Positions 3,612 to 51,928 of a DNA stretch of 64,000 nt are shown here, in pieces. Origin of the DNA: an uncultured Acetobacteraceae bacterium (GTDB lineage: Bacteria; Pseudomonadota; Alphaproteobacteria; Acetobacterales; Acetobacteraceae); the NCBI GenBank assembly GCA_903924985.1, contig CAIYDT010000134.1, positions 1-64,000 of the forward strand, given 5' to 3'. Both the position numbers and the translations under genes were made by a program. Under the pieces are notes generated by a model. The model saw only the letters and a program-made list of their open reading frames with translations. It was not told the origin of the DNA and ran no database searches. The stretch's first letter is position 1; each line of letters opens with the position of its first letter.

Positions 3612-3634
3612 GGATATCGGCAAGCTATCCGATA
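3612..3634. promoter_or_regulatory. Palindromic site TATCCGATA, first of four
   Basis: The segment GCTATCCGATAAG (3624-3636) matches 11 of 13 positions of the palindrome GCTATCCGATAGC that recurs near parA and around 50.2 and 51.9 kb. It is preceded by GGATATCGG (3612-3620), which makes a TATCGG/CCGATA inverted repeat. It lies about 75-95 bp upstream of the PhyH start and is a candidate operator. The binding protein is unknown. Confidence 0.5.
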
Positions 3635-3658
3635 AGAAACGCCTTGGGAGTCCTCGCC

Positions 3659-3892
3659 GTGGCCATCGACGTGCGCGACCGCGCCATCGTGCAGCCAGAA
3701 GCGGCCTCCCGCCGCGATGCCTGGCCGCCCAATGGCGGGCGCCCCGGCAGCGATCTGGAATTCATGCGGACCCACCATCTGGACCCGCACTGGGACTACG
3801 ACGACCCCACCCAGGTGCTGCCCCCCGGCGTCGATGAGCAATTGCGCCGCGATTTCTTCATGAACAACGCCCGGACTGTCTATGGCGGTTGA
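3659..3892 (+). pseudogene. Internally deleted amidohydrolase (family 2) remnant
   Basis: An open frame of about 77 codons joins two pieces of an amidohydrolase-2 TIM-barrel protein. The first half (PPNGGRPGSDLEFMRTHHLD) matches the N-terminal part of such enzymes, which normally continue into a long barrel. The second half (HWDYDDPTQVLPPG, then RRDFFMNNARTVYG) is the typical C-terminus with the HWD-[FY]-DDP motif. About 250-300 residues that normally lie between are missing. The junction falls at CCGCAC (3785-3790), a plausible microhomology. No catalytic core remains, so the frame is non-functional. The identification is from family memory. Confidence 0.7.
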
Positions 3893-3924
3893 CGAATCAT
3901 CCGCGAGCGCCGTCTCTTGCGCGT

Positions 3925-4626
3925 ATGAATGTCCCACCGCCGGAAACACTGGCTTTGCCGACCGGTACCGCTCGGGTGGAGTGGCGCCGCAGCAGCCGTG
4001 CTCGGAGGGTGAGTTTACGTGTCGATCCAAGGGGTGGTGCAGTGGTGGTGACGTTGCCTTCGCGGGCCAGCCATCGGTCCGGAATGGCGCTGCTGATGAG
4101 CCATGTGGATTGGGTGGCCGATCGCCTCGCGGCTCTGCCGGAGGCGGTGCCGTTTGTCGATGGTGCGATGGTTCCGGTTTGCGGCGTTCCCCATCGTATC
4201 CGGCATGTGCCCTCCGCCCGTGGTGGAGCCTGGCTGCACGACGACGAACTGCATGTTGCGGGTGCCCCCGAATTCCTGCGTCGGCGCGTGGTCGATTTCC
4301 TGCGGGCCGAGGCGCGCCGGCGGTTGAGCGCCCTGGTTTCGGTAAAGGCTGCGCTGGGTGGCGTGACGCCGAAGCGTATCGTGGTGAAGGATACCTCCAG
4401 CCGCTGGGGCAGTTGCGCGCCCGATAAGACCTTGGCGTTCAGCTGGCGCCTGGTGATGGCCCCGGAGTTCGTGCAGGACTACGTCGCCGCGCACGAGGTC
4501 GCCCATATCGGGCACATGAACCACGGCAAATTGTTCTGGGCGCAGGTCGACCGGCTGACCCCACACACCAAGGTCGCGATCGCCTGGTTGCGGCACGACG
4601 GGGCGCGGCTACAGCGGATGGGGTGA
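3925..4626 (+). CDS. YgjP-like (M48/DUF45) metallopeptidase domain protein
   Basis: A 233-residue YgjP/DUF45-type zinc metallopeptidase. The catalytic HEVAH is at 190-194 (AAHEVAHIGH) with a third ligand His at about 200 (MNHGKLFW). The preceding DTSSRWGSC block (157-164) is the family signature. The N-terminal half is Arg-rich (RRSSRARRVSLRV). A TTG 36 nt upstream is an alternative start, but the ATG in front of MNVPPPE is preferred. The cellular role of this family is poorly known. It follows the amidohydrolase remnant closely but is probably not functionally linked to it. Confidence 0.87.
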   Translation: MNVPPPETLALPTGTARVEWRRSSRARRVSLRVDPRGGAVVVTLPSRASHRSGMALLMSHVDWVADRLAALPEAVPFVDGAMVPVCGVPHRIRHVPSARGGAWLHDDELHVAGAPEFLRRRVVDFLRAEARRRLSALVSVKAALGGVTPKRIVVKDTSSRWGSCAPDKTLAFSWRLVMAPEFVQDYVAAHEVAHIGHMNHGKLFWAQVDRLTPHTKVAIAWLRHDGARLQRMG

Positions 4627-4757
4627 TAATCCGCCATGGTGCCCGAGATGCCCCGCGCGGCCACGGTCTTAACGACGCTGAGGGCCGCGATGGTGGTCGC
4701 GGCGGCGCCTAAGCCAGTCAGTCCGCGGCGGGAGATCGTGGGTTCGTTGAATGCCAT
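4479..4757 (-). pseudogene. Orphan Tat signal peptide, probable truncated gene
   Basis: The ATG at 4757 has a good AGAGG ribosome-binding site. The frame reads MAFNEPTISRRGLTGLGAAA and on through TTIAALSVV: a twin-arginine motif (SRRGLTG), a hydrophobic stretch and a possible cleavage site near AAR. After about 45 residues the frame merges into antisense of the metallopeptidase gene and stops with no recognisable domain. A TTGACA lies about 95 bp upstream on the same strand. I read this as the 5' end of an exported, probably cofactor-containing, protein whose body has been deleted. It could also be a short expressed peptide. Confidence 0.45.
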
Positions 4758-5079
4758 GCGCCTCTGTCCTATTTCCCAATTCTGGGTTTGTTGCATGCCG
4801 GCACGGGCCTGGTTCGGCCCCGCCGGGGGTTGTTAGGCAACTGGTGTGTCAAGAGAGGGGCTGGGAAAGTCAGGTGGCGGAGAGCCGCTTCTCTTTTCAG
4901 TTGCGTCGGGACTGAAATCCCGGCCGCGCAACACCCCGGCCGAGGTACTCCTACAGTACCTGTTGCATTTCAAATGTGAATCCACCTACCGGCCTTCGCC
5001 GGCATGACGTGATAGCGCTGTCACGAAGGTCACTCCTCGGCCGACCGGTATCAGAGGGTTGCGTGGCAATTTAGCGGGC
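4758..5079. other. Intergenic region with a REP-like hairpin
   Basis: About 320 bp without a supported gene. It holds the palindrome CCGGC-CTTC-GCCGG followed by ATGACG (4989-5008), a common dispersed-repeat form in GC-rich alphaproteobacteria, and a short AT-rich palindrome CATTTCAAATG near 4965. Otherwise I see nothing. Confidence 0.5.
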
Positions 5080-5571
5080 TCAAAAAATCCCGGCGTCCAA
5101 GCCTGCCGCGAACGCCGCCCCCAGCTCGGCGCACCGCGCCAGATCCGCCGGGCCAACCGACTTAGGTGCCAGGATCGCTTCCGGCGTTTGGGCATGCGTG
5201 CACACGATCAGCGGCTCCATGATAGGACGCAGCCGCCAGCCCGTGGCGATGCGGGCGATCTGGCGGGCGGCGTTTTCGCCGTCGCTGCCGGCGCAGATCA
5301 TCGTGGCGTAGGGCCGGCCTTCGATGCAGCCTAGCGCCGGGTAGTAGCTACGGTCGAAAAAATCCTTCATCGGGCCTGACAGCGCGGCCAGATTCTCCGG
5401 TGTCGCGAAAATGAAGCCGTCGGCCGAGAGCAGGTCGGATCCGGTTGTCGTTTCAGCCGACAGCAACTTGACGTTTATACTGGGCTCCGCTGTCGCGGCG
5501 CGCCGAGCGGCCTCGGCCATTTGGCTTGTGCCGCCCGTGCGGGAGTGGAAGACGATCAGAAGTGTCTTCAC
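5080..5571 (-). CDS. Flavodoxin-like NAD(P)H-dependent oxidoreductase
   Basis: A 163-residue flavodoxin-fold protein. The FMN phosphate-binding loop is at the N-terminus (LLIVFHSRTGGTSQMAEA, about 4-21), followed by GFIFATPENLAALSGPMKDF, the FMN-reductase/WrbA-type loop after strand 3. It is short, with no extra domain, and probably reduces quinones or other small acceptors using FMN. It lies 3 bp downstream of the small partner gene of parA on the same strand, so it may be co-transcribed with the partition cassette. That arrangement is unusual and may be accidental. Confidence 0.8.
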   Translation of the reverse strand: MKTLLIVFHSRTGGTSQMAEAARRAATAEPSINVKLLSAETTTGSDLLSADGFIFATPENLAALSGPMKDFFDRSYYPALGCIEGRPYATMICAGSDGENAARQIARIATGWRLRPIMEPLIVCTHAQTPEAILAPKSVGPADLARCAELGAAFAAGLDAGIF

Positions 5572-5574
5572 GCG

Positions 5575-5904
5575 TTATCCGAGTTCGCGCTTCAACGCCG
5601 CCAATGCGTGTTCCAGCGTTTCGCCCAACACCCAGCCTTTGGCGTCGCTGATGGCATAGAAGGCGTCGACCGTTTCCTGCGACGCTTTGACGTTGAACTG
5701 CACGTTGCGGCCGGTGCGATGACGGCGTTGCGCCCGTTTCGGGGTGGCGACCGGCTGCTCGCGACTGCGAAAATGGGCTGCCTCCGCCACGGCCCGCACT
5801 TGCTCCTGCAAGGGCGCCGAGGTGTCGGGCCCGGGGCGGGGTGCGAAGCCGCCGATGTCGAGGTCGTCGGCTTCGAAAATGCTCGCGCGCGTACCGCTCA
5901 TCAC
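5575..5904 (-). CDS. Small ParA-partner protein, probable DNA-binding
   Basis: A 109-residue protein. Its N-terminal half is disordered (FAPRPGPDTSAP) and basic around 58-66 (KRAQRRHRT). The C-terminal 45 residues (RNVQFNVKASQETVDAFYAI, then a helix with LGETLEHALAALKREL) look like a ribbon-helix-helix or stability-determinant domain. Its start overlaps the parA stop by 4 nt (ATGA). Small RHH-type proteins encoded just after a short ParA act as ParB-like centromere-binding and autoregulatory factors in type Ib plasmid partition systems. That role is inferred from position and fold; I recognise no exact family. Confidence 0.6.
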   Translation of the reverse strand: MMSGTRASIFEADDLDIGGFAPRPGPDTSAPLQEQVRAVAEAAHFRSREQPVATPKRAQRRHRTGRNVQFNVKASQETVDAFYAISDAKGWVLGETLEHALAALKRELG

Positions 5905-6596
5905 GCCACCTTCCGCTGTGGTTCGGCTGCTTTGGATTCCCTGAGGATGGCAATCGTTTCTGCCGCGAAGGCGCGTGCATTGGCCATCGAGGCCGGAATG
6001 TTGGTCACCTGTGTCGCATCCAGGCCCGAAAGCGTGCCACCGAATACGAAAATGGCGCGATAGGCCTCGCGTTCGTGGATCTGCGTGCCGAACACGCGCA
6101 TGCCGGCATTGACGAACTCGGCCTCGATGCTTTTCAGGGTGCGCGGGCGAATGGCAGCGCTGGTGCGGGTGAACAGCACGGCCAGCGGAATGGTTTTGTT
6201 GAACGCCCGTTCCTGCCGACGAATCAGCGCGATGGCTTTCACCGCCTCCGCCGCGTCGAGTTGGGAGCCCTGCGTGGGGATGATCGCCAGATCGGCGCGG
6301 CTTAACGCGTAGCCGACCATCATTGAGGCCGTGCCTTCCAGGTCCACCACCACGAAGGCGCTTTCGGTCGCGGCGCGTTCGATGGCGTCGATGATCGTGT
6401 CCTCGGTGATATCGGCGAGGATGGTGAGCGTCGCCGGTTTGCCGGGGCGGCTGCCCCAGCGGGAGACCGGCTTGTTCGGGTCGGCGTCGATGAAGGTGAC
6501 GCTGGCGCCGCGTTCTGCCAATTCGGCCGCCAGCAGCACGGCGGCGGTGGATTTTCCGGCGCCGCCTTTTGGGCTGGCGAAGACGATGGTTGGCAT
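5901..6596 (-). CDS. parA: ParA-family ATPase, plasmid-type
   Basis: A 231-residue Walker-type ATPase of the ParA/MinD superfamily. The deviant Walker A loop is KGGAGKST (10-17), with FIDADPNKP (about 36-44) as the A' motif and VVVDLEGTAS as Walker B. The protein is short and lacks the N-terminal HTH of large ParAs, which is the form found in type Ib plasmid partition cassettes and some chromosomal copies. It is followed, with a 4-nt overlap, by a small probable DNA-binding partner. An array of GGATATC-type repeats lies immediately upstream. It might partition a protein cargo or be a relic of an integrated plasmid. Confidence 0.85.
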   Translation of the reverse strand: MPTIVFASPKGGAGKSTAAVLLAAELAERGASVTFIDADPNKPVSRWGSRPGKPATLTILADITEDTIIDAIERAATESAFVVVDLEGTASMMVGYALSRADLAIIPTQGSQLDAAEAVKAIALIRRQERAFNKTIPLAVLFTRTSAAIRPRTLKSIEAEFVNAGMRVFGTQIHEREAYRAIFVFGGTLSGLDATQVTNIPASMANARAFAAETIAILRESKAAEPQRKVA

Positions 6597-6631
6597 GCTG
6601 GGCCTCGAGTCGGGACTGTCGGAAGCGATTC

Positions 6632-6690
6632 GATATCCGATAGCCGCCTGGAAGACAACTGGATATCTATAGGATATCTATCAGATTTCA
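6632..6690. promoter_or_regulatory. Candidate centromere/operator array upstream of parA
   Basis: This AT-rich island sits in GC-rich surroundings, 36 bp upstream of the parA start. It contains GATATCCGATAGC (6632-6644), 12 of 13 to the palindrome GCTATCCGATAGC. It also contains two perfect direct repeats GGATATCTAT at 6661-6670 and 6672-6681, 11 bp apart (one helical turn), then TATCAGATT. Such arrays in front of small parA operons typically serve as both operator and parS. The 13-mer is found exactly, in reverse complement, at 50235-50247. Confidence 0.6.
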
Positions 6691-6747
6691 AAGTAGACGC
6701 GACCCCCTGTCCGGCGGCATGGTGCGGGAAAACACGGGGACTCCCTC

Positions 6748-7755
6748 ATGCGTATGCTGTTCGCCGCGATTTTGGCTTTGGCCGCCGTGCCAGCCTTGGC
6801 GCAAAACACGCCCGGCCCGACCTTGGCCAACGTGCTGAAGAAAGGGTACGTCGAATGCGCCGTTCCCTCAGGCACCCCCGGCTTCGGCTTCGTCGATAGC
6901 AAGGGGGAGTTCCGCGGGCTGGATGTCGACACCTGCAAGGCGGTGGCCGCGGCGATCTTCGGCGATGCGTCCAAGGCGCGTTTCATGGGGTTGAACGGCG
7001 CCCAGCGTCTGCCGGCGCTGCAATCGGGGCAGGTGGATTTGGTCGTGCAGACGCTCACCCAGACCCAATCGCGGGAGGCTGCGAATGGCCTGCTGTTCAC
7101 CGGTGTGAACTTTTACGATGGGCAGAGCTTCCTGGTGCGCAAATCGTCCGGCGTAAAATCCGCGAAAGACCTGGCGGGCGCCTCCATCTGCGTCAGCGCC
7201 GGTAGCACCAGTGAGCTGAATTTGGCCGACTGGTCGCAGGCCGCCGGGGTGAAAATCAACCCGGTGGTGTTCGAGCGGGTGGATGAAGGACGCGCCGCGT
7301 ACGACAAGGGCCGGTGCGACGCATATTCGACCGACTCCAGCCAGCTCGCGACCATCGCCACCATCATGCACGACCCCGAGGACCAGATGGTCTTATCTGA
7401 CATCATCAGCAAAGAACCGCTGGGGCCGGCGGTGCGTCAGGGCGACGACCAGTGGTATGAGATCGTTAAGTGGACGTTGAACGCCCTGATCGAAGCGGAG
7501 GAGCAGGGAATCACCCAGGCCAATGTGGACGAGAAGCTGACCAGCCAGACACCGCAGATAAAGCGCCTACTGGGCACGACCGGCGACTACGGAAAGTTCA
7601 TGGCGCTGGACAACAAATGGGCGTTCAACGCCATCAAGGCGGTGGGTAATTACGGGGAGATGTTCGACCGCAATTTCGGCCCGCTGAAGATGCCGCGCGG
7701 GAAGAACGCGCTGTGGAGCAAAGGCGGACTGATGTATTCGGCACCCATCCGCTAG
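6748..7755 (+). CDS. General amino-acid ABC transporter substrate-binding protein, AapJ-like
   Basis: A 335-residue periplasmic binding protein of the polar amino-acid (SBP family 3, AapJ/BztA) type. A signal peptide covers about residues 1-19 ([19 protein letters not shown]). The mature protein shows the family features [36 protein letters not shown] and [20 protein letters not shown]. The permease and ATPase genes (aapQMP) that usually follow are absent here; the next gene is convergent. It therefore serves a transporter encoded elsewhere or is an orphan receptor. It shares the promoter-bearing gap with divergent parA. The stop overlaps the accC stop inside a CTAG. Confidence 0.88.
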
Positions 7756-9089: not shown

Positions 9090-9093
9090 GGGG

Positions 9094-9543: not shown

Positions 9544-9688
9544 GCGGAGTCCTCCGGTAAAATCGGGGGGTGAAAGCATTGGCGCAGGCCGTAGCATAGT
9601 GCCGCGCGCCGGTCCAACCCGAGCGTCCCCTTGGGGTCCCGTTGCCGGGCGACCGCGCCGGGGCCATAATCGGAGGATGCCGAGCACC

Positions 9689-9901: not shown

Positions 9902-9902
9902 C

Positions 9903-10694: not shown

Positions 10695-10750
10695 GGCGGC
10701 TTTGCGAGGTCCGGAGAGTCAATTCCAGCGACGATTCGTATGACACCGGG

Positions 10751-10966: not shown

Positions 10967-11023
10967 ACCGGTTGCCAACCCCTTGGAAAGCGTTGTGAAC
11001 TACGCCCAACAGGGAGAAGCGCC

Positions 11024-12586: not shown

Positions 12587-12590
12587 CGGG

Positions 12591-19521: not shown

Positions 19522-20057
19522 CCCACTCTCTGCCCCGCCGCAATGTTTTGACGTTGGGCCTGATGGGCGCGGCCCTGGCCGGCTGTGGCTTTCGGCCAGT
19601 CTACATGCCCACCGCATCCGGCAAACCCGGCGTGGCGGAGCGGGAACTCGCCGCGGTCGAGGTTGGGATCATTCCCGAGCGTCCTGGCCAGCTGCTGCGC
19701 CAGGCCTTGCAGGAGCGTTTCGCGAGCGATGCGGGGCTACCGCACCGTTACACGCTCGCGGCGGATTTCCGTATCGCGGGCGAGGCCGTTGGCATTCAGG
19801 TCGACAACAGCGCAACCCGCATTCGCCTGACGGGCAGCGTGAACTGGGTTCTGCGGTCGCGCGACTCCGCACGTGTGCAACTGACGTCGGGCAGTGCCAG
19901 GACGCTGGACGGCTTCAACCTGTTCGCCGACCAATATTTTGGTGCCACACTGGAAAACGATGTGGTACAGAAACGCATTGCCGAGAACTTAGCGGATCAG
20001 GTCGCCTTGCAGCTCGCGACCTGGTTCAATCATCGCGCCAACCCGCCGGCCGGTTGA
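19518..20057 (+). CDS. lptE: LPS-assembly lipoprotein LptE
   Basis: A 179-residue outer-membrane lipoprotein. The twin-Arg-like N-terminus and hydrophobic segment end in the lipobox ALAGC (Cys at about 23), followed by GFRPVYMP, which is the conserved LptE start. LptE plugs the LptD barrel and helps insert lipopolysaccharide into the outer leaflet. Its place between leuS and holA supports the call, because this order is conserved. The start overlaps the leuS stop (ATGA). Confidence 0.9.
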
Positions 20058-20061
20058 GCGC

Positions 20062-21078
20062 ATGAAGCTAGCCACGACACAGGTGGCGGGGTTTCTGCGC
20101 GATCCCGGTGCCTGCCGGGTGGTGCTGTTGTATGGCGACGATGCCGGTATGATCCGCGACAGGGCCGAGATGCTCGTGCGGGCCGTGGCAGGGTCGCTGG
20201 ACGACCCTTTCTTGGTGGCTGAGTTAACGCGCGACGAGATCGGTGCGCTGCCGGATGAGGCAGCGTCCCTGCCGTTGACCGGCGGGCGGCGCGTGGTGCG
20301 GGTACGCGATGCCACCGATGCGGCAACCGATTCGGTGCGCGCCATCCTGAAGGGTCGCGCTCCCGCGCTGGTCGTGCTGGAAGCGCCGGGCATCGCCACA
20401 CGGTCCCGCCTGCGGACGGCGCTAGAGGAAGCCCCTGACGGCGCCGCCATCGGCTGCTATCCGGAGGAAGGCAGAGCGCTGGAAGCAACCATTCGTGGCA
20501 CATTGACGGACGCCGGGGTGCGAGTGGATCCCGACGCGTTGTCCTGGCTCACCGCGCAACTCGGCGCCGACCGCGCCTCCACACGGTCGGAACTGGAGAA
20601 ACTGGCGCTCTATGTGGGGCCGAACGGGCGGGTCGATCTGGACTCGGCCATGGCGTGCGTCGGCGATCTGGCGGGATTGTCGCTGGACGATGCGCTGTTC
20701 GCGGCGACCACCGGAGACGTGGCGACGGCGGACCGTGCGCTGGAACTGGCGATGGCGGAGGGTGCGGTGCCGGTGCAGGTACTGCGCGCCGGCCTCGGGC
20801 ACATTCAGAAGCTGCATCGCGCCCGTCTGGCGATGGAGGAGCAGGGGCTGACCGCTGCCGACGCCATGAAAACGCTCCGGCCGCCCATTTTCTACCGCCG
20901 GACCGGGGCCTTCACCCGATCCCTGTCCCTCTGGCCGCTGCCGGCTTTGACGGCGGCGTTGGCGGGATTGGCGGAGGCGGAGCGCGGTTGCAAACGCACC
21001 GGCTGGCCGGATGAGGCGCTGTGCCGCAACACCGTTCTGGCGCTGGCACGCCGGGCGGCGGTCGTTGCGAGACGTTGA
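20062..21078 (+). CDS. holA: DNA polymerase III delta subunit
   Basis: A 338-residue delta subunit of the clamp loader. The N-terminal AAA-like fold begins LYGDDAGMIRDRAEMLVRAV. The middle has the family block LTAQLGADRASTRSELEKLA (about 156-175), and the C-terminal helical collar carries LRAGLGHIQKLHRARL. Delta opens the beta sliding clamp. The gene begins 4 nt after the lptE stop, as in other alphaproteobacteria. Confidence 0.94.
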   Translation: MKLATTQVAGFLRDPGACRVVLLYGDDAGMIRDRAEMLVRAVAGSLDDPFLVAELTRDEIGALPDEAASLPLTGGRRVVRVRDATDAATDSVRAILKGRAPALVVLEAPGIATRSRLRTALEEAPDGAAIGCYPEEGRALEATIRGTLTDAGVRVDPDALSWLTAQLGADRASTRSELEKLALYVGPNGRVDLDSAMACVGDLAGLSLDDALFAATTGDVATADRALELAMAEGAVPVQVLRAGLGHIQKLHRARLAMEEQGLTAADAMKTLRPPIFYRRTGAFTRSLSLWPLPALTAALAGLAEAERGCKRTGWPDEALCRNTVLALARRAAVVARR

Positions 21079-21188
21079 CACCTCCCATAGGGGGTGACCA
21101 TCGCGTATTCGAGGCTCGCTACGACGGAGGGGGGCGGATACCCGTTTGGGCGAGAGGTCACGGCCTGAATCCAGGGAACCGCATTTTT

Positions 21189-21202
21189 TTGATCCAGATC
21201 AC
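21189..21202 (+). promoter_or_regulatory. FNR/CRP-type box upstream of a small gene
   Basis: TTGATCCAGATCAC matches 13 of 14 positions of the FNR/FixK-type palindrome TTGATCCAGATCAA. It lies about 80 bp before the ATG at 21274 in an otherwise empty 195-bp gap. A TATGCT hexamer follows at 21213. The regulator is not in the window. Confidence 0.5.
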
Positions 21203-21273
21203 AACATCGTGATATGCTTTCTGGTAAGCGGAGGGGCCATCGCGTTACCGTTGCCTTCGATCGGGAGCATGCC

Positions 21274-21582
21274 ATGCGTCTTTTGCTGCTTATGCGGTCC
21301 CCACTGGCGTTTCCCCTGGCGTTCGCCGTCCCGATGACGATCTGGCTGGCGAGCGCGGTGTCCCACCGCGTCCCGTCGAGCCAGGATCTGGGTATGGTTT
21401 GGGTTTACGTCAGCGCCCTGTGCGCCACGCCCGGCGACCCGAACGACTGCCGGCCGACCGGACAGGCGTCGATACGCGTCTTCGACAGCCGCGAGGATTG
21501 CGCGGCGCATCTGAACGCCGATCTGAACCGCGCGGGGAATCCCCGCCTGATGGGCAGTTGCCTGCGCCGGCAGGAGGCCTGA
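21274..21582 (+). CDS. Small exported or membrane-anchored hypothetical protein
   Basis: A 102-residue protein I do not recognise. Residues 5-30 are hydrophobic (LLMRSPLAFPLAFAVPMTIW), a signal peptide or membrane anchor. The rest is polar with four Cys (ALCATPGDPNDCRP, REDCAAHL, GSCLRR), probably two disulfides in the periplasm. The ATG has GGGAGC as a weak ribosome-binding site. A near-consensus FNR/FixK box upstream suggests oxygen-dependent control, so a respiratory or microaerobic role is possible; that is inference only. Confidence 0.6.
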   Translation: MRLLLLMRSPLAFPLAFAVPMTIWLASAVSHRVPSSQDLGMVWVYVSALCATPGDPNDCRPTGQASIRVFDSREDCAAHLNADLNRAGNPRLMGSCLRRQEA

Positions 21583-21587
21583 CCGCG

Positions 21588-22154
21588 CTATTGCGGCGGG
21601 AACCCAAGCTCCCGCCGTTTCACCTCGATCGGATCGTTACCATCGCGGCGGGATAGCGCCCATTTGTCGGACAGGCCGCCGCCGGCCGGGGCGGGTTGAC
21701 CGCGCAACACCTCGAACACCACCGTGCGGTGGGCGATGCGCCAGGCGCCGTCCTTGCGGGTCATACGATCGACGTAGCGGCCGATGACCTCGGTTTCCAC
21801 CGCCTGATCCCCACCGATGGGCGCTCCGCGGAGATAGGCCAGGCGGGCGTCTCCGGCTTCCGGGCTGAGACGCTGGTGGGTGATGAAGTAGGCCTCCAGC
21901 AGGGCGCTGTCCGGTCCGTCGAACTCGATGACGATGTTGCCCACGACATGCATGGATTGCTCAATCGTGGCGTGGCGCTTGACCAGGGATTGGATGAACC
22001 CGTCGATGCCGCCTTTGTAGCCGCCGTGATCGTCATGGGCGTCGGTGTGGTAGGCGGATCGGACCAGATCCCAGTTCTTGCGGTCCACCCCGCGGACGTA
22101 GCGGAACAGGCAGTCCTGGATTTCCTGCCGGTCCTGAAAACGCATGGTGTCCAT
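21588..22154 (-). CDS. SnoaL/NTF2-like protein
   Basis: A 188-residue protein with an NTF2-like fold of the SnoaL type: EIQDCLFRYVRGVDRKNWDL (10-29) followed by SAYHTDAHDDHGGYKGG, then HVVGNIVIEFDGPDSALLEA and the closing DGAWRIAHRTVVFEVL. This form is common among small dehydratases, isomerases and ring-hydroxylase-associated proteins in catabolic clusters. The ATG with AGGAGG upstream is clear. The gene is divergent from the broken MFS gene. No reaction can be assigned. Confidence 0.82.
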   Translation of the reverse strand: MDTMRFQDRQEIQDCLFRYVRGVDRKNWDLVRSAYHTDAHDDHGGYKGGIDGFIQSLVKRHATIEQSMHVVGNIVIEFDGPDSALLEAYFITHQRLSPEAGDARLAYLRGAPIGGDQAVETEVIGRYVDRMTRKDGAWRIAHRTVVFEVLRGQPAPAGGGLSDKWALSRRDGNDPIEVKRRELGFPPQ

Positions 22155-22199
22155 GTTTCCTCCTGTGCGGCACAATGGCGGGGAACATTGAGACATCCG

Positions 22200-22965
22200 A
22201 TGCGCTTGTTGACCACCCCGCTGCTGCGAGTCACTGGGCGGGCGCCCTTCCCTTTGCTTGTGGCTCTGACCGCCTGCGGCACCCTGGGCATGCACATCAT
22301 CATTCCCGCTTTGCCCGCGACGGCGCGCGCGATGGGGATCTCCATCGGCACCGCGCAGCTGACAATCACACTGTATTTGATCGGATTGGCGGCGGGGCAG
22401 CTGCTGTATGGGCCGCTGTCGGATCGGTTCGGGCGGCGGCCGGTGCTGTTGGGGGGGCATGACGCTGTTTACGCTGGCGGCCGCGCCGTTCATCTTCGAG
22501 AACCATCTGCATCGGCCGACCCAGGATGTAGGGCTGTACTACCTGATCCTGATGCTGGGCGTTGCCACGGGCGGGATGCTGGCGAACCGGCTGTCCCGGT
22601 TTGTGACGCTGCGCACCGGGTTGCGTATCGCGAACGCGCTGGCGATTTCCGGGGCGGGTTGCTTCATGCTGGCGGAGCTTTCGGGCCATCTGTCGGTGCC
22701 GACGGTGGTGGGGTCGATCACGCTGTTCATGGTGGGCACCGGCATGGCGAGCCCCTTCGCTTTGGCGGGGTCGGTCAGCGCCAACCCTCAGGCGATTGGT
22801 GCGGCATCGGGGTTGTACGGGTTCTTTCAGATGGGCTACGGGATGCTCTGCACCATCGCGATCGAGAGCTGGAACCCCGGCTCGGTGTTGCCGGTCGCGA
22901 TCATATTGCTGAGTTCGACGCTGGCGTCGCTCTGCGTGCTGACGTGGTCGGCGCGGCGGGCGTGA
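22200..22965 (+). pseudogene. Bcr/CflA-type MFS exporter, deleted and frameshifted
   Basis: The first 86 codons encode helices 1-2 and the MFS loop motif (YGPLSDRFGRRPVLL). After the G7 run at 22451-22457 the coding continues in the +1 frame with LAAAPFIFENHLHRPTQDVG and runs through about six further helices to the stop at 22965. That second part corresponds to roughly helix 7 onward of Bcr-type drug exporters. About 130-150 residues (helices 3-6) are absent, so this is not just a homopolymer sequencing error. The gene should be non-functional. It begins with an ATG at 22200 and is divergent from the SnoaL-like gene. Confidence 0.8.
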
Positions 22966-22966
22966 G

Positions 22967-24952
22967 TTACCAGGCGCGCACTTCCAGCCAAGTGCTCTGA
23001 TAGGTCGCGCCCTCCCCCATGTCGGTGTAGGTGTCCGCACAGAGCATGTTGACGGTGCCGGTCACGGCCTCATTGTCTGGGCGCTGGCCGGGGACCAGGA
23101 TGACGCCGGGCTGGACCTCATCGCGGACGTGGAGGATCAGTCCGATTTCGCCGCAATCGTTATGAAGTCGCACCTTCTGGCCGTCGGTCAGGCCGCGCAC
23201 GGCGGCGTCGTCCGGGTGCAGCACGGCGTAGGGGGCGCCCTCCCGCCGGCGCAGGAAGCCGACGCCGGAAAACGCGGTATGGCTTTGGAAGTAGCCCGGG
23301 GCGGTTAGCAGCTGGAGAGGATATTGTTTCGTATCCGCCGGATCTGGCTGCCAGTAGGGCAAGGTATCGCTGGCGAACTCCATCTTACCGGAGGGCGTAC
23401 GGAATTCCTGCCCGTTCCTGTGCCCAATCGATACCGGGCCTTGGGTGGGAAGCGTGGCGGGATCGTACTCCGCGGCGGTGCCTTTCGCGCCCCGGAACAT
23501 TTCCTTGAGGATATCCGGCTGACTCATGGAGAACACCGGATCGGTCAGACCCATCCGTTTGGCGAGTTCCTGCGTCAACCGGATGTTGGACCAGGCCTGT
23601 CCCCGCGGCTCGATCACCTTGTTGCCATACTGCATATAGTAGGTGCCATAGGACCGATAAAAGTCCTCGGTTTCCAGGTAGGTCGTGGCGGGCAGCACGA
23701 TGTCGGCGTATTTCGCGGTGACCGACAGGAACGGGTCGTGCACGACGGTGAACAGGTCATCCCGCGCGAGGGCCGCTCGCATTTTGGTGGTGTCGGGGTT
23801 GGTGACGGCGGGGTTGTTGGCGGCGATGAACAGCGCGCAAATGGGCGGGTCGTTCAGGGTCAGCAGCGCCTCGCCCAGCTTCAAATGGTTGATGGTGCGC
23901 GTTGCCACGGGGCCGGAAGGTTTGCGGACGGCGTTGTAATTCAGGTCGAATGATGCCGCGGTGGCCAGCAGCGCTCCGCCGCCGTAACGGCCATAGGCGC
24001 CGGTGACGCCGGGCAGCATCGTTACGGTGCGGAGGTTGTTGCCGCCGTAGGTGAAGCGGCTCATGCCGAAACCGATGCGGATAAAGGATTTCTTCGCCGA
24101 GCCGTACATCGCGGCAAACCGTTCCACATCTGATTCAGTTAGGCCAGTTATTTCCGCTGTGTAAGCGGGTGTGAAGCGGGGCAGGACTTCTGCCCGCACC
24201 CGGTCGAAACCCGTGGTGTGCGAGGTAATGTATGCCTCATCGGTTTTGCCGTCGCGCACCAGTATGTGCATGACGCCCAGCGCCAGGGCCGAATCGGTCC
24301 CGATCCGGATGGGCAAATACCAGTCAGCCGCCTTCGCCGCCCGCGTCCGCCGGGGATCGATCACGATCAGCTGCGCACCGCGCGCCCGAGCCTCCTCGAC
24401 CTTGGCCCAGAGGTGTACGGCGGTGGCGTGCAGGTCGGAGCCCCAGCAGACCACCAGATCGGACTCGACGATGGATTCCGGATCGGCACCCCCGACCGGA
24501 CCCACCACGGAATCCCACGCGGCCTCGGCGCAGGAGTCGCAAACGGTGCCGCCCCATAGCCGGCTGGTCCCGAGTGCATGGAACAACCCGTTCATCAGGC
24601 CACGGTTCATCAGGCCCTGATGCGCGCTGTAGGCGTATCCAAGGATGCCCATCGGACCGTCTTTGTCGATGATGGCTTTCCAACGGGCCGTTATTTCGTC
24701 CAGCGCATCGCCCCAGGCGATCGGCGCGAAGGTGCCGCTCCCCTTGGGGCCGGTGCGGCGCAGCGGCGTGGTCAGGCGCTCGGGGGAGTGCACCAGCTCC
24801 ATATCGCGGTTGACCTTGCCGCAAGCAAAGCCGGCAGTCAGGGGGTGGTCCGGGTCACCCTGGATGCGGACGACGCGGCCGTTGTCCACCTGCACGAGCA
24901 GGGAGCACATGTCCGGGCAGTCATGCGCGCATACGGTTCGGATGGTCTGCAC
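22967..24952 (-). CDS. Molybdopterin-dependent oxidoreductase
   Basis: A 661-residue DMSO-reductase-family enzyme. The N-terminal [4Fe-4S] site is C8-x3-C12-x3-C16-x27-C44 (TVCAHDCPDMCS and GFACGKV). Molybdopterin-binding blocks follow: SDLVVCWGSDLHATA, QLIVIDPRRTRAAKAADWYL and the C-terminal dinucleotide-binding domain with VRLHNDCGEIGLIL. No Tat signal is seen, so it is probably cytoplasmic, as in formate dehydrogenase-like or thiol-oxidising members. The start is GTG. No partner subunits or Mo-cofactor genes lie nearby. Its substrate is unknown. Confidence 0.88.
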   Translation of the reverse strand: MQTIRTVCAHDCPDMCSLLVQVDNGRVVRIQGDPDHPLTAGFACGKVNRDMELVHSPERLTTPLRRTGPKGSGTFAPIAWGDALDEITARWKAIIDKDGPMGILGYAYSAHQGLMNRGLMNGLFHALGTSRLWGGTVCDSCAEAAWDSVVGPVGGADPESIVESDLVVCWGSDLHATAVHLWAKVEEARARGAQLIVIDPRRTRAAKAADWYLPIRIGTDSALALGVMHILVRDGKTDEAYITSHTTGFDRVRAEVLPRFTPAYTAEITGLTESDVERFAAMYGSAKKSFIRIGFGMSRFTYGGNNLRTVTMLPGVTGAYGRYGGGALLATAASFDLNYNAVRKPSGPVATRTINHLKLGEALLTLNDPPICALFIAANNPAVTNPDTTKMRAALARDDLFTVVHDPFLSVTAKYADIVLPATTYLETEDFYRSYGTYYMQYGNKVIEPRGQAWSNIRLTQELAKRMGLTDPVFSMSQPDILKEMFRGAKGTAAEYDPATLPTQGPVSIGHRNGQEFRTPSGKMEFASDTLPYWQPDPADTKQYPLQLLTAPGYFQSHTAFSGVGFLRRREGAPYAVLHPDDAAVRGLTDGQKVRLHNDCGEIGLILHVRDEVQPGVILVPGQRPDNEAVTGTVNMLCADTYTDMGEGATYQSTWLEVRAW

Positions 24953-25312
24953 CTGGGTGGCTCCGCGATTGAAGGTCTATCAATGCCAGATCGGGATCGT
25001 AGCACGCAGGACCGGTGAGAGCGGAGCTGGTTGGACCAATGCGACGATGCGGGCTTCCGTCGATCCGCGCCAGCTCCCCTAACCGCACCCGCGATCATCA
25101 ACCGACACCCCTCGGCCATCGAACATCCCCCGGACACGCTGTCCTAAGGGGACATTCCACCTTTGCGCTAACAGCCCTGCTAACCACGCGTCAGCCAGGT
25201 GGGCAAATCGCAGGTAGGCTCGAGTATGCGACCACGAAGCCCTACGATACCTTCGCCGGGCGGCCAAAGCATCTACGGTCCGCTTCCGCTCAAGACCCGA
25301 TCTTCAGCTGCG
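24953..25312. other. Intergenic region, possible insertion-element relic
   Basis: About 360 bp with no gene I can support. The block AAGGGGACATTCCACCTTTG (25146-25165) resembles terminal sequences of some IS elements (GGGGACATTTC...TTTGC), but there is no transposase fragment and no clear inverted partner. Nothing else stands out. Confidence 0.3.
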
Positions 25313-44727: not shown

Positions 44728-44730
44728 CGT

Positions 44731-45855: not shown

Positions 45856-45959
45856 GCGGCCATTCCTATGATGGCTCCCGCCGCTGGGCGCAACCGGCCG
45901 CGAGGTTGATTTGCCCCGCCGCTTCCCGCAAGAAAGCGCCCCAAGCAACAGGATCGCCG

Positions 45960-46880: not shown

Positions 46881-46901
46881 AGAAATCAAGGAGGAAACCC
46901 T

Positions 46902-47651: not shown

Positions 47652-48691
47652 GCACCACCACACAGGCTGCCCACAGTCCTTACCTGCCGGTGCGCGACGA
47701 CTGGCTTGCGCGCCGGGTCGAGACCGTCCTGGAACCGGAACTGCCGATCGTCGATCCGCACCACCATCTGTGGGAGCGGCCGGGCTGGAACTACATGCTC
47801 GACGATCTGCTGGCCGACACCAACTCCGGCCACAACATCGTCGGCACCGTCTTCGTGCAGTGCCGGTCGATGCACCGCGCTGGCGGACCGGAAGAGTTCC
47901 GCCCCGTCGGCGAAACCGAGTTCGTGAACGGCGTCGCCGCCATGAGCGCATCCGGCGGCTACGGTACCGCCAAGATCTGCGCCGGCATCGTGGGCCACGC
48001 CGACCTGCGCAACGGCGCGCGTGCTGCCCCGGTGTTGGAGGCCCATATCAGAGCCGGCGGTGGACGGTTCCGCGGCATCCGGCACATCACGGCCTGGGAC
48101 GCCGATCCCGCGCTCATGAATCCGGCCTACCCGATGCCGTCCGGCCTGATGGGCGACGCGACGTTCCGCCAGGGTTTCGCCTGCCTGGCCCCGTTGAACC
48201 TGACCTTCGACGCCTGGCTGTACCACCCGCAAATCGGCGACGTCGCGGCGTTGGCGCGCGCCTTCCCCGGCACCGGCATCTGCCTGAACCACATCGGCGG
48301 CCCGCTGGCGATCGGCGCCTATGCCGGGAAACGCGCCGAGGTTTTTTCCCAATGGTCCGCCGCCATCAAGGACCTGGCCACCTGCCCCAACGTCGTCGTC
48401 AAGCTCGGCGGCATGGCGATGCGGATCAACGGCTGGGATTTCCATGAGCGCGCCGAACCGCCGTCCTCGGAAGATCTGGCCGCCGCCTGGAAGCCGTATG
48501 TCGATGTGTGCATCGAGGCCTTCGGCGCCTCCCGCTGCATGTTCGAGAGCAACTTCCCGGTCGACAAAGGCTCCTACGGCTACCAGGCGTTCTGGAACGC
48601 CTGCAAAATCCTGGCAAAGGGTGCCAGCGCCTCGGAGAAGGCCGATCTGTTCTGTGGGACGGCGTCGCGGTTCTATCGGCTGGTGTTGTAA
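47648..48691 (+). CDS. Amidohydrolase-2 family metal-dependent hydrolase
   Basis: A 347-residue TIM-barrel hydrolase of the amidohydrolase-2 group (lactonases, decarboxylases). The metal motif IVDPHHHLWER is at about 36-46. Later blocks are RGIRHITAWDAD, ICLNHIGGPLAIG (barrel His) and the closing SRCMFESNFPVDK (Asp ligand region), RFYRL. It starts within the end of the alpha/beta-hydrolase gene. The pair probably forms a hydrolysis route for an imported lactone or ester. The substrate is unknown. Confidence 0.88.
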   Translation: MSTTTQAAHSPYLPVRDDWLARRVETVLEPELPIVDPHHHLWERPGWNYMLDDLLADTNSGHNIVGTVFVQCRSMHRAGGPEEFRPVGETEFVNGVAAMSASGGYGTAKICAGIVGHADLRNGARAAPVLEAHIRAGGGRFRGIRHITAWDADPALMNPAYPMPSGLMGDATFRQGFACLAPLNLTFDAWLYHPQIGDVAALARAFPGTGICLNHIGGPLAIGAYAGKRAEVFSQWSAAIKDLATCPNVVVKLGGMAMRINGWDFHERAEPPSSEDLAAAWKPYVDVCIEAFGASRCMFESNFPVDKGSYGYQAFWNACKILAKGASASEKADLFCGTASRFYRLVL

Positions 48692-48740
48692 CACCAAGCG
48701 GCGTTGAAACTGACCGATGCGATGCCTGTCTTACCGTCAT

Positions 48741-48850
48741 GGTCGGCCTTGGGCCGACCACCTCCGGAAGCGGTGGCACAGCGAAACGCCTGTGTTTACC
48801 TGCCTTCCTGGCCTGAGGTGATCGGGTCAATCCTCGGGCCAAGCCCGAGG
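48741..48850. repeat. Two REP-like palindromes in one intergenic gap
   Basis: GGTCGGC-N5-GCCGACC (48741-48759) and CCTCGGG-N5-CCCGAGG (48832-48850) are two perfect 7-bp inverted repeats. They share flanking CCGTCATGGTCG in opposite orientation (48734-48745 and, reversed, about 48851-48862). The arrangement matches the paired units at 32961-33072. Confidence 0.7.
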
Positions 48851-48918
48851 ACGACCATGACGGGAGGAGGCGACGGTGTCCGGAGAGTCAGCGGTTACGC
48901 CGGTTGGGATAACACCCC

Positions 48919-48956
48919 GCCATTTGGCGGTTCAATATATCTTGACGCCAAATGGC
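48919..48956. promoter_or_regulatory. Operator of the Xre-RES toxin-antitoxin operon
   Basis: GCCATTTGGCG (48919-48929) and CGCCAAATGGC (48946-48956) are a perfect 11-bp inverted repeat with a 16-bp spacer. Each half is itself close to palindromic (GCCA-WW-TGGC). An AT-rich stretch and TTGACG (48943-48948) lie inside, so binding would block the promoter. This is the expected place for autorepression by the Xre antitoxin. Confidence 0.7.
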
Positions 48957-48965
48957 CGGTATCCC

Positions 48966-49391
48966 ATGTTGTTGGGCATGTCACCGATAACCGCCCTACG
49001 ACCGACAGCAGCGGCCTCGGACTCGGAGATCACGCGAGCCGAGGCCGCGGCGATGTTGCGTGCCGTCCTGACGTTGTTCGACCGCTGGCAGCTTACTGTC
49101 GCCCAGGGCCGCACGCTGTTGGGCGACCCATCGGAACGGACCTACCAGCGTTGGCGCAATGGGGAGGTCGCCACCCTCCCCCGCGACACCGTCTTTCGGC
49201 TTGGCACGCTTCTCGGCATCCACAAGGCCTTGCGGTACATGTTCGCGCAGCCGGAGCGCGGCTATACCTGGATTCACACGCCGAATGAGGCGTTCGGAGG
49301 CCACAGCGCGCTCGACCGGATGCTGCAGGGCGCGCCGACCAATCTCGCCGCCGTCCGCACCTATCTCGACGCCGAGCGCGGCGGCTGGTGA
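48966..49391 (+). CDS. Xre/MbcA/ParS-type antitoxin
   Basis: A protein of about 141 residues. The N-terminal part is a helix-turn-helix region (SEITRAEAAAMLRAVLTLFD). The C-terminal toxin-binding domain of the MbcA/ParS/Xre (DUF2384) type reads LLGDPSERTYQRWRNGEVAT LPRDTVFRLGTLLGIHKALR and ends with AFGGHSALDRMLQGAPTNLA. The start is either the ATG at 48966 or that at 48978; both follow the operator. It overlaps the toxin gene by 4 nt (GTGA). Confidence 0.88.
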   Translation: MLLGMSPITALRPTAAASDSEITRAEAAAMLRAVLTLFDRWQLTVAQGRTLLGDPSERTYQRWRNGEVATLPRDTVFRLGTLLGIHKALRYMFAQPERGYTWIHTPNEAFGGHSALDRMLQGAPTNLAAVRTYLDAERGGW

Positions 49392-50065
49392 CAACGCCAC
49401 TTCGCTGGGCGGTGTCGCACCGGATCATTCGCACCATCTACCCGCCGGTCGATCTGTTCGAGGACATCGCCCCGCCCGCGGATTGGGACTTGCTGGTCGC
49501 CGCCGAAGCCAAGACCAACCCACGCGTTCTGGACGCCCTGGGCAACCTCGGCTTGGTCCCGGTTTCCCGCCGCGTCGCCGGCCCGACCGCATCTCTGGTG
49601 ATGGGCGCGTTCACGCATGCCTCGGCGGATCGACCGAGCCGCTTCGCGGACGGTAGTTACGGCGTTTGGTACTGCGGGGATCGGTTTGAGGTCGCGTTGG
49701 CGGAAACCGCCTGGCACTTCGAGCGGTTCATGCGCGCCACCGCCGAACCGCCTGGGGAGGCTGATTACCGCGAACTCGTTTGCACAGTGCACGGCCAGGT
49801 CGCGGATGGGTCCGATCCGACGCTTCTTGTGTCCGACAATTGGTCGGCCGGCCAGGCGTTTGGGCGGGAGGTCCGGCGCCAAGGAGGCGACGGCGTTGTT
49901 TACCCCAGCGTGAGGCACGAAGCTGGTCAGGCACTGGCATTGTTCTGGCCAGATTGCGTCGGGTTGCCTGTCACGCAGGCCAAGCAGTTCCGCTACGGAT
50001 GGGATGGGCAACGCATGCATCGGTATCTCGTTCACGGAACCCGCGCCTGGGTGCCGTTCCCATGA
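49388..50065 (+). CDS. RES-domain toxin
   Basis: A 225-residue RES-domain protein. The hallmark block is SRFADGSYGVWYCGDRFEVA LAETAWHFERF (about 79-109), and later VSDNWSAGQAFGREVRRQGG DGVVYPSVR. Characterised RES toxins degrade NAD+ with an ADP-ribosyltransferase-like fold, stopping growth. Here the Arg, Tyr and Glu positions of the block are present. It uses a GTG start inside the antitoxin stop. The pair is a type II toxin-antitoxin module. Confidence 0.9.
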   Translation: MTTPLRWAVSHRIIRTIYPPVDLFEDIAPPADWDLLVAAEAKTNPRVLDALGNLGLVPVSRRVAGPTASLVMGAFTHASADRPSRFADGSYGVWYCGDRFEVALAETAWHFERFMRATAEPPGEADYRELVCTVHGQVADGSDPTLLVSDNWSAGQAFGREVRRQGGDGVVYPSVRHEAGQALALFWPDCVGLPVTQAKQFRYGWDGQRMHRYLVHGTRAWVPFP

Positions 50066-50100
50066 AATGGCCGCATTTTCCTTCATACATACAGTAGCTT

Positions 50101-50248
50101 CCCGATATCCATTTGGTAGATATAGATACCAGGCAGATACCCAAGGACCACCTCACTCCCATGAGTGAGGGCGCAGACCCCGTCTCGGTCGATCTTGTTG
50201 GTGTGCTTGCTACATAATACCAGAGTATTCGATAGCTATCGGATATCC
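50101..50248. promoter_or_regulatory. AT-rich palindrome cluster with a GCTATCGGATATC site
   Basis: The gap between the RES toxin and the convergent TPR gene holds GATATCC (50104), GGTAGATATAGATACC (50115-50130), the perfect inverted repeat CCTCACTC-CCAT-GAGTGAGG (50151-50170) and two abutting perfect palindromes GATAGCTATC and GGATATCC (50231-50248). The 13-mer GCTATCGGATATC at 50235-50247 is the exact reverse complement of the parA-upstream site. No terminator-like T-run is seen. Confidence 0.5.
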
Positions 50249-50253
50249 CAACG

Positions 50254-51858
50254 CTATCCCTTCGCGACGAACGCCTTCGCCCGCGCGATCTCCGGCCGAA
50301 CGGTATCCGCGTGCCTGGCCAGCGCGATCAGTTTCCCGTAGTAGATAGCAGCCTTCTTCCGATCCCCCGCCGCCTCCGCCGCACGCGCCGCGCCGTAGTA
50401 GCCGCGGAAGCGGTTCGGCTCCCGCAGTTGGGACGCTTCGTATTCCTTCAGCGCCTCGGCCGGCTTGCCGGCTTCCAGGAGCATGTCGCCCAACAACTCT
50501 CGGGCCGGCAGGACGCGTCCGGGGGTAACGATGTGCTTCTCGTGGCTGTCTTCCAGGTCGGCTGCGGCCCGCATCAGGGTCAGGGCTTCATCGGTCTTCT
50601 TCTGGGCAAAGGCGATCCAGCCAGCGGCGGCGCGCTGCTGCACCTCGACCTCGGTGGCCCAGTACGGGTCCTTCGCGTCGACCAATGCCTGATGCAGCGC
50701 GACCAGTTGGGCGGCGTTCTGCTCCCCCGCCGCGATGTCGCCCAAACGGGCAGCGCCGAGCGCGCGGGCGAACCAGGTGATCGCTTCGGTGTAGGGCACG
50801 GTGCCGGTGGTCGTCTCCAGTTGCATCGCGGCGCGCCAATCGCCGCGCTCGAGCGCGTAGCGGGCGGGCATCGCGGCTGACGAGTATGCCGCTGGCCGCA
50901 AGGTCCGAGACGCCATTTTGACCTTGAACGCATTGGCCACGTCATTGCGGGCGTCGGCATCGCGCGCCATCTGCAGATCGGCGTACACGGCATAATCGCT
51001 GGCGTGATAGGCTTCCCCCAGCTCGTTGCCGAGGATCGCGGACTGATAGGCGCGGCGATTGGCGGCCACTGAATCCTCCCACGCGCCGACGCGGGTGAAG
51101 ATATGGGACGGCATGTGCTGGGCATGCGGTGCGGCGGGCGCGAGGCCGGCGTAACGGCGCGCGGCCGTCACGCCCCGTTGCGCGAGCGGAGGGGCGTCAT
51201 AAACATGGATCAGGTAATGCGCGATGCCCGGATGGTTCGGGTATTTGACGAGCTCCTTCTCCAGGATCGTCGCCGCTCTGCCATAGGCCGCGAAGGTCTG
51301 ATCCGCCTGCGATTGCGTGCCGGCAATATAAAGTGCGCTGAAGATCTGGGCCTCATCGTCTTTGGGGTAGCGTGCGGCAAGCGCTTCGAAGGCCTTGGAT
51401 CGTTCGGCCTGGCGCTCGTTTTCCTTATGCCGCGGCCAATCCTGGTAGTAAGCGGCAACCGCTTCGACGTAATCGCGCTCCCGCTGGGTCTTGGCGCCGA
51501 TCTTGCGGGCGTCGTCGATCGCGGCCTGGGCTTTTTCCGCCTCCTTGGGGGTGGAGCCGGCGCCGGCGAGCGGGTTCGACATCAGCAGCGCGGCGATGCC
51601 CCAATCGGCGATGGCACAGGTCGGGTCTTTCGCCAGAACATCGCGGAACGCTTGCTCCCCAGCGGTGTACCAGAAGGAGTGCAGCATCGCGACGCCGCGC
51701 TGGAAATCGGCCTGGGCGGCGGGGCTGCAAGAATTGGCAAAGGCGACCTTGCCGACATTGCCGTGGCCTTCATGGCCCTCATGCTCGTCGCGGGCGAAGG
51801 CGGGTCCGGCCGCCAGCAGCAGGGCGATGGCGCTGGCTGCGAGAATGCGGTGTGTCAT
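50254..51858 (-). CDS. Exported TPR-repeat protein of unknown function
   Basis: A 534-residue protein. The signal peptide is about 1-22 (MTHRILAASAIALLLAAGPA FA) and is followed by a His/Glu-rich segment (DEHEGHEGHGN) that may bind metal. The rest is tetratricopeptide-like helices: FQRGVAMLHSFWYTAGEQAF, ALAARYPKDDEAQIFSALYI, the conserved HPGIAHYLIHVYD and HAQHMPSHIFTRVGAW, and AGKPAEALKEYEASQLREPN. Family members are usually annotated only as TPR proteins. It is downstream of the DUF1326 and DUF2182 genes on the same strand, so a shared envelope role is possible. Confidence 0.8.
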   Translation of the reverse strand: MTHRILAASAIALLLAAGPAFARDEHEGHEGHGNVGKVAFANSCSPAAQADFQRGVAMLHSFWYTAGEQAFRDVLAKDPTCAIADWGIAALLMSNPLAGAGSTPKEAEKAQAAIDDARKIGAKTQRERDYVEAVAAYYQDWPRHKENERQAERSKAFEALAARYPKDDEAQIFSALYIAGTQSQADQTFAAYGRAATILEKELVKYPNHPGIAHYLIHVYDAPPLAQRGVTAARRYAGLAPAAPHAQHMPSHIFTRVGAWEDSVAANRRAYQSAILGNELGEAYHASDYAVYADLQMARDADARNDVANAFKVKMASRTLRPAAYSSAAMPARYALERGDWRAAMQLETTTGTVPYTEAITWFARALGAARLGDIAAGEQNAAQLVALHQALVDAKDPYWATEVEVQQRAAAGWIAFAQKKTDEALTLMRAAADLEDSHEKHIVTPGRVLPARELLGDMLLEAGKPAEALKEYEASQLREPNRFRGYYGAARAAEAAGDRKKAAIYYGKLIALARHADTVRPEIARAKAFVAKG

Positions 51859-51915
51859 GGCATGTCCTGTGTGGCTCGGCCACGATACATGACGTTTCGG
51901 TCCCGGACAAGAGCG

Positions 51916-51928
51916 ACTATCCGATAGC
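51916..51928. promoter_or_regulatory. Palindromic site ACTATCCGATAGC
   Basis: This matches 12 of 13 positions of the consensus GCTATCCGATAGC; CTATC-C-GATAG is perfectly symmetric. It lies 58 bp upstream of the TPR gene start and 6 bp past the DUF2182 stop. The same GGGATAGCG sequence runs through the stop codons of both the DUF2182 and TPR genes. Confidence 0.5.

Follow-up and report, generated by a model that had tools for sequence, protein, structure and literature searches.

Plasmids are the best-known carriers of ParA systems in which the partner is a small ribbon-helix-helix protein; canonical ParB is a larger helix-turn-helix protein with a 16-bp parS. Here we describe a putative partition cassette of the former kind, consisting of parA and a gene for a 109-amino acid (aa) partner, and the 11-bp iterons that accompany it in the DNA of an uncultured Acetobacteraceae bacterium (genome G000, draft assembly GCA_903924985.1, 285 contigs, 5.59 Mb or 5,585,638 bases). 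The stretch analyzed, hereafter the window, comprises the first 64,000 bases of the 118,294-base contig CAIYDT010000134.1. Type Ib plasmid partition systems combine a small ParA and a small ribbon-helix-helix partner with a centromere that is made up of direct and inverted repeats and precedes the operon (PMC5016525, PMC3235114); the partner represses the operon, and tails are presented to nucleoid-bound ParA-ATP (PMC5016525). Dispersed type Ib sites are also described for plasmid pSM19035 (PMC5016525). Small ParAs, found on many chromosomes, are classed as type Ib as well, and orphan ParAs without parB and parS are described (PMC9178275).

The locus in the window resembles TP228 ParF-ParG-parH and pSM19035 delta-omega-parS in the small ParA, the predicted ribbon-helix-helix partner and the upstream repeats but differs from both in the chromosomal location, a different 11-bp iteron sequence and extra iteron pairs located up to 45 kb away (PMC5016525, PMC3235114). 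The type Ib parCAB system of the Myxococcus plasmid pMF1 shares with it, by description, ParB-binding iterons that are dispersed past the operon and differs in being plasmid-borne and consisting of three genes (PMC3235114). By analogy, the nearest functional parallel appears to be the archaeal SegA-SegB system, in which a chromosomal ParA and a ribbon-helix-helix protein are combined with a 13-bp S-centred palindrome, TCTAGASTCTAGA, present upstream of segAB and at additional sites along the chromosome (PMC12284271). That system differs in being archaeal and in its site sequence, the motif in our locus being GCTATCSGATAGC, and SegB sites are mostly intragenic and spread over the chromosome (PMC12284271). 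When the partner profile was compared with PDB chains, none of the five sequences listed was named SegB, which was not compared directly. Bacterial chromosomal ParABS systems likewise join a ParA-family ATPase to a DNA-binding partner on chromosomal sites (PMC7333895, PMC7022226), in contrast to our locus, where the partner matches no ParB family, nor any other family in Pfam, NCBIfam or PHROGs. The literature consulted yielded neither a bacterial chromosomal pair of ParA and ribbon-helix-helix protein with its own sites nor a paper on this cassette, the annotation name of which was not searched.

We consider it probable that the cassette is a plasmid-type Ib partition system that has settled on the chromosome, with the partner binding the iterons as operator and centromere and the distal iteron pairs acting as extra loading sites. 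The parA gene (5901..6596, minus strand) encodes a 231-aa Walker ATPase of type Ib (ParF-like) that lacks an N-terminal DNA-binding domain and contains the Walker A motif KGGAGKST at residues 10-17; among solved structures, ParF (4dzz, E 5.5e-18) and a ParA (5u1g, E 6.1e-18) match it best. The start of the partner gene (5575..5904, minus strand) overlaps the parA stop. A scan for parA homologues yielded 56 loci, of which 47 were retained after removal of 4 near-duplicates and 5 fragmentary or start-less loci; a homologue of the partner is encoded downstream of parA in 42 of these 47. In plasmid relatives, the partner is annotated as 'stability/partitioning determinant'.

The partner is predicted to consist of a long N-terminal tail and a ribbon-helix-helix domain. 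In its structural model, the two C-terminal helices have predicted local distance difference test values of 92-94 by ten-residue block and the tail is of low confidence; F45 and R48 are invariant in 42 aligned sequences (41 homologues and the window protein). The best Foldseek matches of the model are Arc, Rv0298, ORF56 and MazE-mt10, none with an E-value below 0.4, and antitoxins, CopG, ParG and MatP are listed as well, none of them significant by E-value. In the comparison of the partner profile with the PDB, a designed helical repeat protein came first (E 0.005), with ORF56 (E 0.039) and Arc (E 0.6) also matched. Taken together, the predicted helices and the PDB matches point, albeit with weak E-values, to a ribbon-helix-helix fold. 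The predicted strand QFNVK resembles QFNLR of Arc, in which Q, N and R contact DNA. Loci whose partner has a Q.N.K strand carry at least three GCTATC-type sites upstream of parA in 23 of 28 cases, versus 4 of 14 for other strand patterns (Fisher P 0.0015), and at least two such sites in 25 of 28 versus 6 of 14 (P 0.0025), in this test of 42 loci without correction for kinship.

The original prediction, made from the letters of the window, was a 13-bp palindrome, GCTATCSGATAGC, at four intergenic sites. All four are confirmed, with two mismatches to the palindrome at 3624 and one each at 6632, 50235 and 51916. The palindrome is thus present, although the true unit is the 11-bp iteron GCTATCSGATA, to which the 13-mer adds two bases. 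Base-identity autocorrelation of the last 200 bases upstream of parA, computed for 51 loci (the 47 scan loci, three plasmids and the window), peaks at lag 11 (mean Z 3.2; Z >2 in 80%), with minor peaks at lags 7, 18, 22 and 29; the element therefore consists of arrayed 11-bp iterons. In the window, the parA-proximal array, the likely operator and presumed centromere (6632..6690, minus strand), includes three units spaced 11 bp apart (6655, 6666 and 6677), with a tandem repeat of period 11 at 6661-6681, and the unit at 6632-6644, which lies 23 bp from this run. As had been claimed, one of the four sites heads the parA cassette, the 6632 unit standing beside the array directly upstream of parA. 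The iterons are internally palindromic and located upstream of the operon, that is, the direct and inverted repeats of a type Ib system are found there, and the array would accordingly be placed as a centromere. It aligns without gaps across G000 and six congeners; GGCTATCGGATA is near invariant in the seven-genome alignment, one of the seven sequences having A in place of the first G in the adjacent GCGG, and GCTATCGGATA is present in all seven. In the sister cassettes L060, L061, L065, L066 and L073, there are 0-1 loose GCTATC matches upstream of parA and, by eye, other repeats appear to be present there; the corresponding DNA of L033 and L071 also looks different by eye, yet contains 3 and 5 loose GCTATC matches, respectively.

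For the analysis of the distal sites, a symmetric motif was trained on 44 loci from outside the genus, with the window and its six closest relatives left out, and pairs of motif units 11 bp apart were scored, with a cluster threshold of 17.5. The best pair positions on the 118-kb contig are those of the parA array (6666, with the top score of 26.1, and 6655), 50224, 51916, 3613, 50097 and 6632; in 100 simulated contigs, the best pair had a mean score of 14.9, a 95th percentile of 17.3 and a maximum of 20.2. The strongest distal pair (50224..50247, plus strand; score 24.4) consists of units at 50224 and 50235, the partner at -11 from the core having 3 mismatches (P 0.0025). It is located between two convergent genes, one encoding a RES domain protein and the other a weakly TPR-like protein, and neither a promoter-like nor a terminator-like site was found there. 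The pair at 51916..51939 (plus strand; score 21.6) includes units at 51916 and 51927, with 4 mismatches in the partner at +11 (P 0.016), and lies between a PpoB2-domain gene and the weakly TPR-like gene. The pair at 3613..3636 (plus strand; score 19.9) combines units at 3613 and 3624, with 3 mismatches in the 11-bp partner (P 0.0024), and sits between a PhyH-like gene (named by eye) and a divergent YgjP-like gene; an inverted repeat, GCTTGCCGA...TCGGCAAGC, at 3600-3625 overlaps the 3613 iteron. A weaker pair that had not been predicted, at 50097..50120 (plus strand; score 17.6), drops to 17.0, under the threshold, with a local background. Directly before the 50097 and 50224 pairs, an Xre/MbcA-ParS antitoxin and a RES-domain toxin are encoded at 48876-50065.

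With a background of local composition, the threshold of 17.5 yields four clusters in the window, none in the 54-kb rest of the contig and three in 588,707 bp of sequence from 41 further genome stretches, some of which came from contigs known to hold the 9-mer TATCSGATA, the core of the palindrome; the clustering in the window has P 4e-4 for all four clusters and P 0.005 for the three distal ones. Among the nine 9-mers located outside this contig, a single one, on contig C117, has an 11-bp partner at no more than 4 mismatches. Iteron-pair-like sites outside the window contig were noticed at L254:2932 (contig C145) and C117:41795, and the partition system may have a few more sites elsewhere in the genome. 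The suggested role of the repeat as a target of the ParA partner has good support in the case of the parA array, which is conserved, 11-bp periodic and varies with the predicted contact residues, and weaker support in that of the three distal sites, for which the pair scores and 11-bp partners speak.

The exact 9-mer occurs four times in the window and at 13 places in the whole assembly, compared to 3 for the pattern read backwards. Its rarity, put at about 0.1 occurrences per 64 kb by the original prediction, holds up: the genome rate gives an expectation of 0.15, compared to four observed (Poisson P 2e-5; 5e-6 when the rate excludes the window). Under looser matching, the enrichment in the window is only mild, with 22 matches to the 13-mer at up to 3 mismatches versus a shuffle mean of 12.7 (reached by 1 of 100 shuffles) and 9 matches to the 9-mer at up to one mismatch versus 4.0 (reached by 2 of 100). 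All four cores are indeed intergenic, as judged from open reading frames and orthologues, the longer overlapping reading frames being judged non-genes; the 51916 site closely follows the stop codon of the 51935-52726 gene, with the second unit of its pair overlapping that stop. With one mismatch allowed, the 13-mer is found 7 times in G000 (control 2) and 6, 10, 2, 9 and 0 times in G001, G003, G010, G015 and G016 (controls 3, 7, 5, 4 and 2).

The chromosomal location of the cassette, near accC, is apparent from the sequence context. The contig encodes AccC, GlyS, PpdK, a membrane pyrophosphatase and FlgE, each above the NCBIfam cut-off, and two tRNAs; accB and thiG are names given by eye, the ThiG-like protein having no NCBIfam match at E 1e-20. 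In 12 accC stretches from genomes without a close orthologue of the cassette, accC, accB and thiG are found together in 10, with thiG missing from the other two, one of which is at a contig end; the cassette is present in none of the 12. It shares a contig with accC in G000, G001, G003 and G015. In G010, G045 and G047, accC and the cassette are on separate contigs, but the cassette or its 5' part adjoins the same solute-binding-protein gene, so that the same chromosomal place is likely in these three genomes as well. An integrated plasmid was considered and rejected, the searches, which covered 20 window proteins, having revealed no gene for replication or transfer; the sole plasmid-linked name in the window is a weak match at 55587-56681 to RHE_PE00001 (49.5 bits versus a cut-off of 250), a family that we take to be plasmid-linked. 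A terminus or MatP-like role was likewise dropped, with no dif-like sequence on the contig (best 11 of 15 positions, compared to 13 in a control contig) and with GGGNAGGG too rare there for judging strand bias. On the contig, a turning point of the cumulative GC skew falls near 25 kb; along about 20000-25000, the skew switches from positive to negative without a dif-like site.

Homologues of ParA at E 1e-40 are found in 10 of the 33 genomes of the genus, and close orthologues in 7, including G000; the other six are 87-96% identical, that of G047 being in two fragments. The same six genomes have the most similar AccC (90-95%, compared to 86% or less in the other 23 listed, with no match in 3 genomes at the cut-off used), and six ParA sequences of the group form one clade with support of 100/100 in a midpoint-rooted tree of 49. 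The cassette is under purifying selection: across five congeners, the ratio of nonsynonymous to synonymous substitution rates (dN/dS) is 0.054-0.072 for ParA and 0.045-0.12 for the partner, compared to 0.030-0.062 for accC, and dS of the cassette genes is of the same order as that of accC, which makes a plasmid relic in decay less likely. ParA homologues of greater distance (42-60% identity) are encoded at L087, L088 (G016), L202 (G041) and L204 (G043) in three other genomes of the genus, and among these only L202 has an iteron cluster in the scanned DNA.

From one species to another the distal sites turn over, but in at least one further species the neighbourhood again contains such sites. 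In G015, three clusters are present in 60 kb of contig C200 and one in 100 kb of contig C211, parts of both contigs being syntenic with the window at 42-59 kb; 14 control stretches of this genome (199.6 kb) contain no clusters at the threshold and three at a threshold of 16 with a fixed background. In G003, one candidate (15.8; reached in 1% of simulations) is located between orthologues of the genes that flank the 50-52 kb group of the window.

Among the plasmid relatives, Ancylobacter plasmid pE has a GCTATC-type array between parA and the replication initiator gene and no cluster elsewhere, the reversed sequence giving three. The Niveispirillum plasmid (155 kb, of which 150 kb was scanned) has such an array upstream of parA, with repA about 20 kb off, and contains seven clusters, five of them within 4 kb of parA, compared to two in the reversed control. 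This plasmid also encodes an Xre/MbcA-ParS antitoxin and RES-domain toxin pair. In the Acuticoccus plasmid, the repeats upstream of parA differ in sequence.

A canonical chromosomal ParB was not found in the assembly by a search that was positive in 10 of 14 control genomes, Caulobacter included, which may reflect a gap in the draft. The sole ParB-family (TIGR00180) match is a 568-aa protein (C171:38466-40172, equivalent to L238:8466-10172), the N-terminal part of which is methyltransferase-like by eye.

Several observations weigh against a settled partition system with distal loading sites. Apart from the uncorrected kinship in the strand comparison, the evidence for the fold of the partner is weak by E-value in both the PDB profile and the Foldseek comparisons. 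In the array, the 6632 unit lacks a well-matched partner at the exact 11-bp distance (7 and 6 mismatches), and a sigma-70 scan upstream of parA recognized no promoter. The best single-unit score on the contig is at 85595, beyond the window. The reversed contig gave three pairs near 19 and the reversed window two clusters above the threshold, so the pair threshold is not sharp; with a fixed background, there are five clusters in the window, none in the rest of the contig and six in the 41 other stretches. Genome-wide 9-mer totals, from a search of 40 genomes, are similar in carriers of a close orthologue (13, 10, 17, 7 and 15) and in 18 other genomes of the genus (2-21), and most non-carriers in the genus also show an excess over the reversed control. 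Among the relatives, the G015 parA array scores 16.3, under the threshold, with no cluster over it on the parA contig of that genome; G001 has only a weak candidate (14.8; 2% of simulations) in the 8.9 kb examined; and G001, G015 and G045 lack the 3613 pair in the stretches that correspond to its location. The original prediction was to be abandoned if genome-wide counts were at the background level. This is what we find for the simple 9-mer, the count of which is uninformative as a test because carriers and non-carriers are alike; the unusual feature is the local clustering of iteron pairs rather than the total count.

These data bear most directly on the possibility that only the array upstream of parA works, as an operator and perhaps a local centromere, and that the distal pairs are functionless, being due to chance or representing decaying plasmid remnants. 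The distal sites are not kept at orthologous places, the 9-mer is at background genome-wide and pair-like sites exist elsewhere, for example on C145, all as this explanation would have it. We consider it unlikely, given the three distal pairs with exact 11-bp spacing within one 64-kb stretch and the presence of separate sites in partly syntenic DNA of G015 and, more weakly, G003. Much less probable is an operator function, in which an unrelated transcription regulator would act through the motif on the genes beside the sites. The 51916 site, which precedes the weakly TPR-like gene by 58 bp, and the 3613 site, between divergent genes, would be suitably placed, but the 50224 pair lies between convergent genes and so offers no obvious promoter for an operator; moreover, the motif model was derived from parA-upstream arrays outside the genus, and the iteron type goes with the contact residues of the cassette partner. 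A role of the sites in conjugation-like processing of the VirC1/VirC2-overdrive type, instead of partition, is suggested by the Pfam VirC1 match of ParA (E 1.1e-18, 67.9 bits versus a cut-off of 24). This is highly improbable: ParA equally exceeds the Pfam cut-offs of MipZ, CbiA, AAA_31 and ParA; of two NCBIfam models, both below cut-off, ParA_partition scores 112 bits (cut-off 180) and the VirC1 equivalog 70.3 bits (cut-off 313); and the 20 window proteins searched include neither a relaxase nor a transfer protein. Finally, the small mobile repeat that had been offered as an option, akin to a miniature inverted-repeat transposable element copied to several places, can practically be dismissed despite the several similar short copies within one region, given that a comparison of the four sites, each extended by 300 bp in both directions, shows only short matches outside the iterons, the longest of 20 bp at 95% (E 3e-4) being between coding stretches near 6532 and 51816.

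Under the preferred reading of a settled partition system, the ancestor of one clade of the genus would have acquired a type Ib (ParF/ParG-like) cassette, now at 5575-6596, as part of its chromosome, and its descendants would have kept it. The 109-aa protein would bind the 11-bp iterons as side-by-side dimers, about one per helical turn, and, when bound at 6632-6690, would cover the parA promoter region and thus repress its own operon. In the partition complex formed at the array, the flexible tail with the invariant F45 and R48 would reach nucleoid-bound ParA-ATP. The iteron pairs at 3613, 50224, 51916 and perhaps 50097 could be extra loading sites, through which ParA would pull or position the iteron-bearing stretch of the chromosome. 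The sequence itself shows the cassette, the array with its 11-bp periodicity and conservation, the chromosomal location and the purifying selection; binding, repression and any action on the chromosome are what we infer from these features.

More tentatively, and with a probability well short of even, the system might be a bacterial counterpart of SegAB, that is, a domesticated type Ib system with several S-centred palindromic iteron pairs over about 50 kb that segregates or positions this region beside, or in place of, ParABS. A cassette kept throughout the clade under selection of a strength comparable to that on accC and equipped with scattered sites of its own would offer a way to ask what a plasmid segregation machine does on a chromosome and whether the archaeal SegAB design arose likewise. 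The link between the iterons and three residues of the beta-strand, if it survives a kinship-corrected test, would aid centromere prediction for this cassette family.

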